Assembly: GCA_015066015.1 (NCBI GenBank) | Contig: SVPE01000007.1 | Coordinates: 62,001 to 126,000, forward strand | DNA length: 64,000 nucleotides | From: Oscillospiraceae bacterium | GTDB lineage: Bacteria; Bacillota; Clostridia; Oscillospirales; Acutalibacteraceae | Direction: 5' to 3' | In this document: one piece after another, positions 15,562 to 18,559 of the stretch | How positions within the stretch are numbered: the stretch's first letter is position 1 | Layout of the letters: each line of letters starts with the position of its first letter | Made by a program: the position numbers and the translations under genes | The notes under the pieces: generated by a model | Seen by the model: only the letters and a program-made list of their open reading frames with translations | Database searches by the model: none | Told to the model about the DNA's origin: nothing

Positions 15562-15638
15562 GAGGGTGTAGCTCAGTTGGTCAGAGTACTTGCTTGACAT
15601 GCAAGGGGTCGGTGGTTCGAGCCCACTCATCCTCACCA
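15562..15638 (+). tRNA. tRNA-Val (anticodon GAC)
   Basis: A 77-nt cloverleaf with the CCA end encoded. The acceptor stem GAGGGTG/CATCCTC has one G-T pair. The anticodon stem CTTGC/GCAAG encloses the loop TTGACAT, giving anticodon GAC (valine, GUC/GUU codons). The T-arm contains GGTTCGA. Its 3' half from 15592 is repeated exactly at 17207-17253, so this gene is the likely target of the islet downstream. Confidence 0.95.
15592..15638 (+). repeat. Left copy of 47-bp direct repeat (putative att site in tRNA-Val)
   Basis: The segment from the anticodon stem to the CCA end is identical, base for base, to 17207-17253 (offset 1615 bp). Sequences outside the 47 bp differ at once on both sides. This is the arrangement left by site-specific integration into a tRNA 3' end. 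Confidence 0.85.
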
Positions 15639-15640
15639 AA

Positions 15641-15668
15641 AATCCAAGTCTTCGGACTTGGATTTTTT
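15641..15668 (+). terminator. Terminator after tRNA-Val (left, islet side)
   Basis: AATCCAAGTC (15641-15650), loop TTCG, GACTTGGATT (15655-15664), then a T-run. It differs in sequence from the terminator behind the right repeat copy, as expected if one of the two arrived with the islet. Confidence 0.9.
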
Positions 15669-15861
15669 CATTTATGTCCGTAGGATATAACATCATTTTT
15701 TGACCAACGGGAAAAAACTTCATTCAGCTACCGAGCTGACTTCATTTGCGGACATAAATGAATGAAGTTGCCTTATGGCAAATGAAGTGCTTCGCAATGA
15801 AGTGTGCCTGCGGCACAATGAAGTTGCCCTGACGGGCAAAATTAAAAGGCGGGACACCCGC
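15667..15861 (+). repeat. Array of short hairpins joined by an 8-base AATGAAGT linker
   Basis: This stretch has no gene. TTCATTTATGTCCG (15667-15680) and its exact complement at 15749-15762 enclose two linkers in inverted sense, ACTTCATT at 15717 and 15739, around the hairpin CAGCT-ACCG-AGCTG. Then come four direct AATGAAGT copies, at 15761, 15781, 15796 and 15817. They alternate with hairpins TGCC-TTAT-GGCA, GC-TTC-GC, GTGCC-TGC-GGCAC and TGCCC-TGAC-GGGCA. A last hairpin, GCGGG-ACA-CCCGC, ends at 15861. Unit length varies, so this is neither a CRISPR array nor a simple tandem repeat. Function is unknown. Confidence 0.75.
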
Positions 15862-15889
15862 ACCCGATTATTATAAAAAAATAAAGGTA

Positions 15890-15918
15890 TTGATTTTTTC
15901 GCGTAAAAGTGCTAAACT
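15890..15918 (+). promoter_or_regulatory. Promoter of the structured RNA
   Basis: TTGATT at 15890-15895, 17-bp spacer, TAAACT at 15913-15918 (4 of 6 in each box). The predicted start, about 15925, is exactly the first base of the long inverted repeat. Confidence 0.55.
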
Positions 15919-15924
15919 AATTAT

Positions 15925-16142
15925 GCCAAACAAACTGAATAAACAGAATTGACGGGGATATTTTATCTTTTTACGGGATAACTATACCTTTATTTAGTCA
16001 TAATATCATTGAATTTGTTAAAAATGCAGATTCCATTAGATATTATGGCTTGGATTGTTATATCCCCATTCTGTTTAGTTTGTTTGGCGACAATCGGAGT
16101 TTGCATTTTATGTGTGTCAGCTTCGGTTGGCGCACTTTTTTA
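15925..16142 (+). ncRNA. Putative highly structured RNA (about 218 nt), family not recognised
   Basis: The 5' end (15925-15961) pairs with 16060-16088 as a 29-bp helix of 12, 9 and 8 perfect pairs, interrupted only by two 4-nt bulges on the 5' side (GAAT and TGAC). Inside is an asymmetric bubble, then a second 12-bp stem, AGTCATAATATC with GATATTATGGCT, capped by a small GAAT/ATTC stem. GGGATA occurs twice on the 5' side, so the 3' strand TATCCCC could pair in two registers. A promoter-like sequence precedes it and a strong terminator ends it. It could be a free-standing RNA or the leader of the LRR gene, 88 bp further on. Confidence 0.55.
16112..16142 (+). terminator. Terminator of the structured RNA, upstream of the LRR gene
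   Basis: GTGTGTCAGC (16112-16121), loop TTCG, GTTGGCGCAC (16126-16135): ten consecutive pairs including three G-T, followed by seven T. No clear promoter lies between it and the LRR gene at 16231. Confidence 0.85.
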
Positions 16143-16230
16143 TTTTGTGGGATGAAATTGTGTAGCATTCAGGAAGGGAGAAAAGAAAGAAAACTATCCA
16201 CAGAAATATTTTATTGAAAGGATTTTTGTA

Positions 16231-16965
16231 ATGAAGAAAATAGGTTTATTGTTTGCGACGGTGCTTATGATTATGCTTTTTGCATTTTCTGCCAGTGCGG
16301 CAACTGAGGGTTATTACACCTATGAGATTAAAAACGGTGAAGCGACTATAACAGATGTTAACACATCAATCAGCGGTGACATAACTATACCTGCCACACT
16401 TGGCGGTTACAGTGTTACTACTATAGGTTATGGGGCTTTTGATCGTTGCAACAACCTCACAAGTGTAACAATCCCCGACAGTGTTACATATATAGTTAAT
16501 TTAGCCTTCAGTAACTGCACAAGCCTTAAAAGTGTAACAATCCCCGACAGTGTTACATCAATTTACGACAGCGCCTTCTATAACTGCACAAGCCTTGAGA
16601 GTGTAACAATCCCCGATAGTGTTGCATCTATAGGTATTGAGGCCTTCCATGGCTGCGAAAGCCTTCAGGCGGTATATTTTGGTGGTACCGAGAAGAAGTG
16701 GGATGAAATTACATCAGGTAATAATGATGAGAGTTTGAAAAATGCCACAATATTTTTTAAAGATGGAGTGAGATGTAAGAAACACACCGATGAAGACCAC
16801 GACGGTTACTGTGACATTTGCAAAGAAATGACACCTGAAAGAGCCAACTGCTCCTGCAATTGCCACAAATCAGGCTTTATGGGCTTTATTTGGAAGATTA
16901 TACTCTTCTTCAACAAGCTCTTTAAAATCAATCCCGTTTGTGCCTGCGGTGTAGCACACTATTAA
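16231..16965 (+). CDS. Secreted BspA-type leucine-rich-repeat protein with Cys-rich C-terminal module
   Basis: This 244-residue protein starts with a signal peptide ([22 protein letters not shown]). About five LRR_5 repeats follow at roughly residues 55-155, with the unit C[12 protein letters not shown]; at DNA level they are close to 69-bp tandem copies. BspA-like repeats usually mediate surface adhesion. Near the end come [13 protein letters not shown], then CSCNCHK, a hydrophobic aromatic stretch ([13 protein letters not shown]) and the terminal CACGVAHY. The protein lacks an LPxTG sorting signal. It is the only gene of the tRNA-Val islet. Ribosome binding site GAAAGGA lies before the ATG. 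Confidence 0.85.
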
Positions 16966-17206: not shown

Positions 17207-17253
17207 GCTTGACATGCAAGGGGTCGGTGGTTCGAGCCCACTCATCCTCACCA
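17207..17253 (+). repeat. Right copy of 47-bp direct repeat: displaced 3' half of tRNA-Val
   Basis: Identical to the tRNA-Val 3' half at 15592-15638, including the CCA. There is no acceptor 5' strand or D-arm before it, so it cannot make a tRNA. By the usual logic of tRNA-site integration this would be the original gene end, pushed 1615 bp downstream. Confidence 0.85.
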
Positions 17254-17254
17254 T

Positions 17255-17291
17255 AAATATCCCGTTCGTGAAAACGAATGGGATATTTTTT
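17255..17291 (+). terminator. Terminator behind the displaced tRNA-Val end
   Basis: AAATATCCCGTTCGT (17255-17269), loop GAAA, ACGAATGGGATATTT (17274-17288): 15 pairs with one G-T, then a T-run. It was probably the tRNA gene's own terminator before the islet inserted. Confidence 0.85.
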
Positions 17292-18328: not shown

Positions 18329-18559
18329 GGTAAGTTAATAAATGAAAGCGTTAAGGAAAGAAGTTCATCCTTTCACCTTTTCAGAGAGTGATGCCGACGG
18401 CTGAAAGCATCATAAGGCAGGGGAATGAACCGCTACTTTCCGAGCTGTTCCCGAAAGGGTAACCGTTTACCTGCGTTAAAGGTTTTGAGTGGCACTTTGT
18501 GCAATTCGGGTGGTACCGCGAGTTAGTCTCGTCCTGATTTTTTAGGACGGGATTTTTTT
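18329..18559 (+). promoter_or_regulatory. Alanine T-box leader of alaS
   Basis: The conserved T-box GGGTGGTACCGCG lies at 18508-18520. It is followed by a terminator stem TCTCGTCCT (18527-18535) with AGGACGGGA (18544-18552) and a T-run. The probable specifier is GCT (alanine) at 18432-18434, in the usual place before ACTTTCCGAG. Uncharged tRNA-Ala would stabilise the antiterminator and allow transcription of alaS. Confidence 0.92.

Follow-up and report, generated by a model that had tools for sequence, protein, structure and literature searches.

Riboswitches that act by terminating transcription consist of a structured domain, followed by a mutually exclusive antiterminator and terminator and then by the ribosome site of the regulated gene. 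In the guanidine-IV (mepA) riboswitch the terminator is controlled by a pairing between a loop and a distal strand, and put and EAR are processive antitermination RNA families. A variant of the guanidine-IV (mepA) riboswitch is the subject of PMC9788692. We investigated a leader RNA in a 64,000-nucleotide stretch of Oscillospiraceae DNA (the window) that shares the general architecture of transcription-terminating riboswitches but matches no known family and has no coherent gene set behind it. We consider it, with a probability of roughly 0.78, to be a cis-acting transcription attenuator, an orphan leader resembling riboswitches that serves unrelated accessory genes and frequently sits next to tRNA genes. 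It resembles the T-box leader (RF00230) in carrying both a terminator and an antiterminator, but 15640-16300 gave no T-box match up to E = 10, and many of the divergent copies do not conserve the UGG at the end of the closing helix (P1). An alaS T-box leader lies in the window about 2.2 kb downstream of the RNA (18342-18539; 91.3 bits, just below the threshold of 93), which shows that the permissive scan does pick up a leader of known class. The resemblance to the guanidine-IV (mepA) riboswitch lies in the loop-to-distal-strand pairing that would control the terminator; the window RNA differs in size, genes and sequence, and has no Rfam match. A weak match to Gut-1 RNA (RF01706; 15759-15829, 25.5 bits, threshold 50) falls in the repeat upstream, outside the RNA and below threshold.

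The initial annotation had described an unrecognised, highly structured RNA with a promoter and a terminator in front of a leucine-rich repeat (LRR) gene, and had left open whether it was a leader or a free small RNA. The promoter-like pair, the closing helix starting at 15925 and the terminator hairpin with six T behind the closed domain are all present in the sequence (Table 1), as are the two occurrences of GGGATA opposite TATCCCC and the 12-bp apical stem (15996-16007 with 16039-16050, 92% complementary). The claim of strong structure is borne out by the predicted fold of 15920-16145 (-76.2 kcal/mol), which is far more stable than that of 200 shuffled sequences (-41.95 ± 4.34 kcal/mol, z = -7.9), none of which did as well. 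Transcription is predicted to start at 15925, the first base of P1. At the 3′ end of the RNA, the minimum-energy fold is the hairpin of linker with terminator (the antiterminator), not the terminator. A simple promoter scan of the plus strand from the terminator to the ATG returned one weak match (9/12) overlapping the start codon.

Table 1. Positions of the leader RNA, its pairing elements and its surroundings in the window.
Feature	Position	Strand	Details
tRNA-Val(gac)	15562..15638	+	left boundary of segment
52-nt direct repeat, left copy	15592..15643	+	tRNA 3′ end
Promoter	15890..15918	+	-35 TTGATT 15890-15895, 17-nt spacer, TG 15910-15911, extended -10 TG-C-TAAACT (TAAACT 15913-15918)
Leader RNA, 217 nt	15925..16141	+	first P1 base to end of T tract
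P1 5′ arm GCCAAACAAACTGAA	15925..15939	+	fold, complementarity, alignment
Apical hairpin P4 GAATTTGTTAAAAATGCAGATTCC	16011..16034	+	loop and 3′ strand 16021-16034 pair with linker
P1 3′ arm TTTAGTTTGTTTGGC	16074..16088	+	fold, complementarity, alignment
Linker	16087-16111	+	between helix P1 and terminator
Antiterminator 5′ strand	16087..16106	+	segments 16087-16089, 16091-16101, 16103-16106
Linker strand GGAGTTTGCATTTT	16096..16109	+	long-range (pseudoknot) pairing with 16021-16034, 14/14 pairs, -18.9 kcal/mol
Intrinsic terminator	16112..16141	+	hairpin 16112-16135, T tract 16136-16141 (six T); -12.8 kcal/mol
Antiterminator 3′ strand	16114..16133	+	segments 16114-16117, 16119-16129, 16131-16133; within terminator
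Downstream gene, 244 aa, BspA-type LRR (PF13306)	16231..16965	+	AAAGGA, 8 nt before ATG
52-nt direct repeat, right copy	17207..17258	+	98% identical; then terminator-like hairpin

The window RNA is one copy of a large and apparently undescribed family of leaders found in gut Clostridia. A DNA search gave one full-length match in its own genome and matches in 19 of the 34 genomes of the genus. A 24-base linker pattern was found in at least 119 stretches of genome contigs and in three viral contigs; among the matches listed, the sources were Clostridia, Oscillospiraceae and similar metagenome assemblies. The P1 5′ arm lay upstream in 116 of these 122 loci; in five of the six loci where it was not recognisable, the motif lay no more than 125 nt from where the retrieved sequence ended. 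The family has a long form (187-234 nt in alignment A1), to which the window RNA belongs, and a short form, mostly of about 160 nt. A1 comprises 103 long forms: the window sequence, 88 of the 93 kept from 113 at 88% similarity (L116, L131, L136, L152 and L166 were left out by hand) and 14 same-genus copies; ten further trimmed same-genus copies and the divergent short forms stand outside it. In one match set, 30 of 41 matches were used, the rest being three long forms and eight low-scoring overlaps on the opposite strand.

From 103 sequences, including the window RNA and some same-genus copies, we derived a covariance model, R1, which matched the window at 15925-16140 with 174.7 bits, a score to be read with that training set in mind. 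Within the genus, R1 had matches in 28 of 34 genomes (E = 0.01), with up to 23 per genome, a few weak ones being the opposite strand of real matches; one match in the window's own genome is a short-form relative (C2:58536-58706). R1 also matched 49 of 150 genomes of the family (E = 0.01) and 67 of 197 genomes of the order (E = 1e-4), the latter spread over 18 numbered families by our count of rows. In a sample of 398 genomes of the phylum, searched with stricter filters, it matched the window's own genome alone; the sample contained five others of the same family or order, all without a match. No Rfam 15 family was assigned to the leader at gathering score, either in the window or in 14 loci with copies; the scan of the 14 loci is not decisive alone because its filters lost a tRNA (L253) that the permissive scan placed above threshold. 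In the permissive scan itself, the best score was 17.5 bits (threshold 100) for the window leader and 28.2 bits (threshold 245) for further copies, with none above threshold. The literature, as represented by the beginnings of abstracts and with subscription journals poorly covered, yielded no RNA like the window leader. The initial description of the RNA as unrecognised is thus supported.

The helices and the promoter are conserved as a unit. In the 103 aligned sequences, 97.5% of the 2980 cells of P1, P4 and the terminator were paired, compared with at most 44.3% when the strands were slid and 89.1% when columns were shuffled, and 15 of the 29 pairs had changed on both sides. Among 209 copies with enough upstream sequence, a promoter pair was present in 198 (by a loose test, at least 8/12), the -10 element ended 6 or 7 nt before the first P1 base in 192, the spacer was 17 in 171, and the TG extension occurred in 179. 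This geometry, the closing helix and the terminator recur in divergent copies, a comparison that excludes chance. Of 173 copies, 128 have the motif AAUA immediately internal to P1 (22 when shuffled), which is only a hint that ligand or ion binding might take place there. G-U cells were far more frequent than A-C cells in the linker-P4 pairing (223:2), the antiterminator (457:10), the terminator (198:4) and P1 (39:0), with 38:17 in P4. Such an excess of G-U over A-C is consistent with the transcribed strand having been selected as RNA, rather than as a DNA hairpin.

The linker has two rival partners. Its pairing with the loop and 3′ strand of P4 was kept in 98.9% of 1429 cells in the 103 long forms (22-57% when slid), a figure that shows conservation and not covariation because shuffled columns reached 98.6% and only four cells had a two-sided change. 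In divergent copies, by our reading, the pairing recurs with changes on both sides, as GAUUGCACUUUUU with AAAAAGUGCAAUC in L050 and as GAGCUAUGUGUUUUU with AAAAACAUAUAUGCUC in L045, the latter with one bulge. The antiterminator forms 18 pairs in the window and is predicted to be more stable than the terminator (-22.0 vs. -12.8 kcal/mol). It was paired in 94.3% of 1837 cells in 103 sequences (slid: 27-48%; shuffled columns: 91.6%), the model omitting a conserved A mismatch at 16090 that is unpaired in 94 of 103; two weak pairs were unpaired in 50 and 32 of the 103. Three of its pairs showed two-sided change, one of which holds 47 of the 49 cells (A-U 50, U-A 32, U-G 15); as this pair partly tracks two sequence types, we did not rely on it alone. 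We read the antiterminator strands as CAAACGAG and CUCGUUUG in the divergent copy L054, and as CAGUUG and CAACUG in L047. Because the linker-P4 pairing and the antiterminator both use 16096-16101 and 16103-16106, they exclude each other. The RNA thus has, by computation, the mutually exclusive structures of a riboswitch expression platform.

An alignment-free swap test on 183 of 185 copies (one copy, L248, has a misplaced 5′ end) showed that both linker pairings are partner-specific. The linker paired more strongly with its own terminator (-17.6 vs. -14.1 kcal/mol) and with its own inner domain (-17.4 vs. -14.2 kcal/mol) than with swapped ones, each beating all 2000 permutations. Among the controls, the reversed domain gave z = -1.6 and the terminator 5′ arm z = -2.2; the reversed terminator likewise reached significance (z = -8.1), at about a quarter of the effect (0.8 vs. 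3.5 kcal/mol). For long copies alone the two z values were -9.4 and -5.3 (an effect of just 0.4 kcal/mol in the second case), and for short and divergent copies -11.0 and -13.0. When linker and terminator were folded alone, the antiterminator was the minimum-energy fold in 170 of 183 copies, compared with 58% for swapped and 5% for shuffled linkers, and its mean gain over the terminator was 8.8 kcal/mol (5.7 swapped, 3.7 shuffled); among those listed, the copies that did not fold this way include L054 and one unit of L199. A constrained energy test, in which the terminator 5′ arm was barred from pairing and the antiterminator came out on average 3.2 kcal/mol weaker than the terminator, is superseded because the unconstrained fold puts that arm inside the antiterminator.

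These structures suggest how the leader might operate. Transcription would start on the first P1 base, and the upstream domain, composed of P1, variable inner helices and the apical hairpin P4, would fold first. The emerging linker could then be captured by the P4 loop and 3′ strand (GGAGUUUGC[A/G]UUUU with AAAA[U/C]GCAAAUUCC); a captured linker would be unavailable, the terminator would form, and the downstream gene would be off. If capture were prevented, the linker would fold onto the terminator as an antiterminator and the polymerase would read into the gene, whose ribosome site usually follows the U tract directly. We infer transcription from the window promoter, the direction of the switch and a signal that sets it. 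A first guess at the signal is a ligand or ion bound by the domain around the conserved AAUA bulge and P4.

The position of the RNA relative to genes favours a leader. In 107 distinct loci, the nearest downstream ORF (at least 90 aa) was on the same strand in 98 and on the opposite strand in nine, the median distance to the terminator being 16 nt (100 of 109 with duplicates kept); the nearest upstream ORF was on the same strand in 63 loci vs. 43, at a median of 214.5 nt. The 59 short-form loci gave 50 same-strand, five opposite-strand and four without a downstream ORF (median 20.5 nt), and 43 vs. 14 upstream. A scan favouring ribosome sites placed the start within 35 nt in 86 of the 142 loci with an ORF, out of 150. 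Both sets of loci (98/107 and 50/59) therefore have the 5′-leader location typical of a riboswitch. In the window itself the ATG lies 89 nt behind the T tract, which is longer than usual, and the LRR protein has, by our reading, a signal-peptide-like start. Gene adjacency is shown computationally, as are the three structures, their conservation, their mutual overlap and their partner specificity.

An alternative is that the RNA is a free small RNA acting in trans and ending at a constitutive terminator, with the neighbouring gene expressed by leak-through or placed there by chance. Both ends of the RNA are paired or hairpinned, one genome can hold as many as 23 matches, and some loci consist of two to four complete promoter-RNA-terminator units with one gene at the end, all of which would suit a free RNA. 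The same-strand ORF a median of 16 nt behind it in 98 of 107 loci points the other way, since in those loci the gene must be read through the RNA, and a conserved antiterminator would have no evident use. We therefore regard the free small RNA as improbable: of the two possibilities left open at the outset, ORF proximity and the conserved antiterminator favour the leader.

The arrays bear on the same question. At L198, L199, L200, L201, L204 and L205, two to four complete units stand in tandem, each with its own promoter and terminator; they differ in their inner sequence (variable stems), and the last unit precedes a gene where followed. Inner units have a terminator before the next promoter and mostly no gene of their own, and L199 has a further terminator-like end upstream of the array. 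A simple leader model does not account for tandem units that each have a promoter. The inner unit of L201 is followed by a ribosome site and a start codon that resembles the start behind the last unit and soon runs into a stop. Some arrays may therefore have arisen by tandem duplication, with decay of the genes; in others, the units may add promoters, or some of them may be free RNAs.

The leader is often found beside tRNA genes. The window RNA lies within a segment some 1.6 kb long, bounded by tRNA-Val on one side and by a 52-nt repeat of the tRNA-Val 3′ end on the other; no integrase gene was seen within it. Of 136 loci, 26 had a same-strand tRNA gene (13 isoacceptors) no more than 900 nt upstream, compared with two for opposite-strand upstream, none for same-strand downstream and one for opposite-strand downstream. 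An exact copy of the tRNA tail occurred downstream in four of the 26, the window included, and in L023 an inner part is repeated over 30 nt. In one genome (G012, locus L235), the same tRNA-Val is followed by a different insert, roughly 1 kb long, with the same right end (AACGCCGTCAGGCGGGCTTGACATG...) as in the window, and the contig with this insert gave no R1 match at E = 0.01. This argues that the RNA is the leader of a cargo gene and not a part that the element needs, and the shared right end suggests small elements moved in trans. In another genome (G002), tRNA-Val is directly followed by a related terminator; the search for an empty site of the window element yielded no clean orthologous one with both flanks. 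A palindromic repeat just upstream of the promoter (15644-15885) has five matches in its own genome and matches in 19 of the 34 genomes of the genus.

The tRNA linkage (26 of 136 loci vs. two opposite-strand upstream), the arrays with variable stems and the tRNA-end repeats around the window copy would also fit the end of a mobile element or a single-stranded DNA recombination hairpin (MITE or attC-like). We hold this to be very improbable, since the promoter and terminator are constant components of the unit, G-U cells greatly exceed A-C cells, and the G012 insert, which has the same right end but no R1 match on its contig at E = 0.01, indicates that the element can do without the RNA. Transposon ends scattered without promoter and terminator, which the initial annotation had named as one of the findings that would speak against its proposal, were not what we observed: both belong to the conserved unit. 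The reading of the RNA as a MITE or repeat was rejected, the multi-copy repeat being the upstream one, outside the RNA.

Phage-like settings were also seen. The same RNA, together with a zinc-ribbon gene, adjoins phage-like genes at L176, L177 and L178, and at L176:5171-6181 the pair stands directly before terminase- and portal-like frames, as a moron would. In the three viral-contig loci the RNA is the same, judged by its score and trimmed sequence, and by our reading it adjoins terminase- and portal-like genes. At L222:338-2829, in a record named as a phage scaffold, the RNA precedes an EcoRI-type methyltransferase-like frame; we read the second frame as DUF262-like, and later genes look bacterial. 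The phage records gave one partial match, on a scaffold of unverified status with later reading frames that we read as bacterial, and the plasmid records gave none; with this single partial match and zero among plasmids, a phage or plasmid origin was rejected. A processive antitermination RNA (put- or EAR-like) that modifies RNA polymerase would agree with the leader position, the phage-like and mobile contexts (L176-L178) and the long structured domain, but is highly unlikely, since the conserved pairing is with the terminator itself and so accounts for antitermination locally, a polymerase-binding module was not recognised and there was no Rfam match above threshold.

The genes behind the attenuator are diverse. 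Of 131 downstream proteins, 129 were scanned, and these included 17 LRR_5, seven Zn_Ribbon_1, six DUF6809, five SHOCT, four AMP-binding and four MazE/AbrB-like proteins and one EcoRI-type methyltransferase; a defence library gave scattered matches, one protein per model. No coherent regulon was found among the 129 with Pfam, NCBIfam, PADLOC and PHROGs, nor the one-ligand gene set that is usual for riboswitches without strictly defining them. In most metabolite riboswitches the downstream genes share a function, unlike here. As the genes point to no single metabolite, a trans-acting factor or a general stress cue may set the switch.

The initial observation is confirmed and is larger than first described, with the antiterminator, the apical-loop pairing, the tandem arrays and the tRNA-bounded segment added to it. 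We put forward, tentatively and as a rather doubtful extension, that the leaders are a new riboswitch class, so far of one order of gut Clostridia, that responds to one shared cue, for which a nucleotide messenger produced under phage attack or stress is a possibility, and that works as a transferable on/off module for accessory and mobile-element cargo; it is likewise conceivable, if less than likely, that this cargo comprises surface proteins, zinc-ribbon proteins, methyltransferases and a phage moron. If so, a tandem array would supply a single gene with additional promoters, each sensing independently. Since exact compensatory mutations follow from the structural model, it can be tested by a standard in vitro termination assay. 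The finding adds a common and computationally well supported family of RNA switches without an Rfam match, in gut bacteria known mainly from metagenomes. With a single regulatory RNA preceding unrelated accessory genes, one must ask which cue surface proteins, small unknown proteins and mobile cargo have in common.
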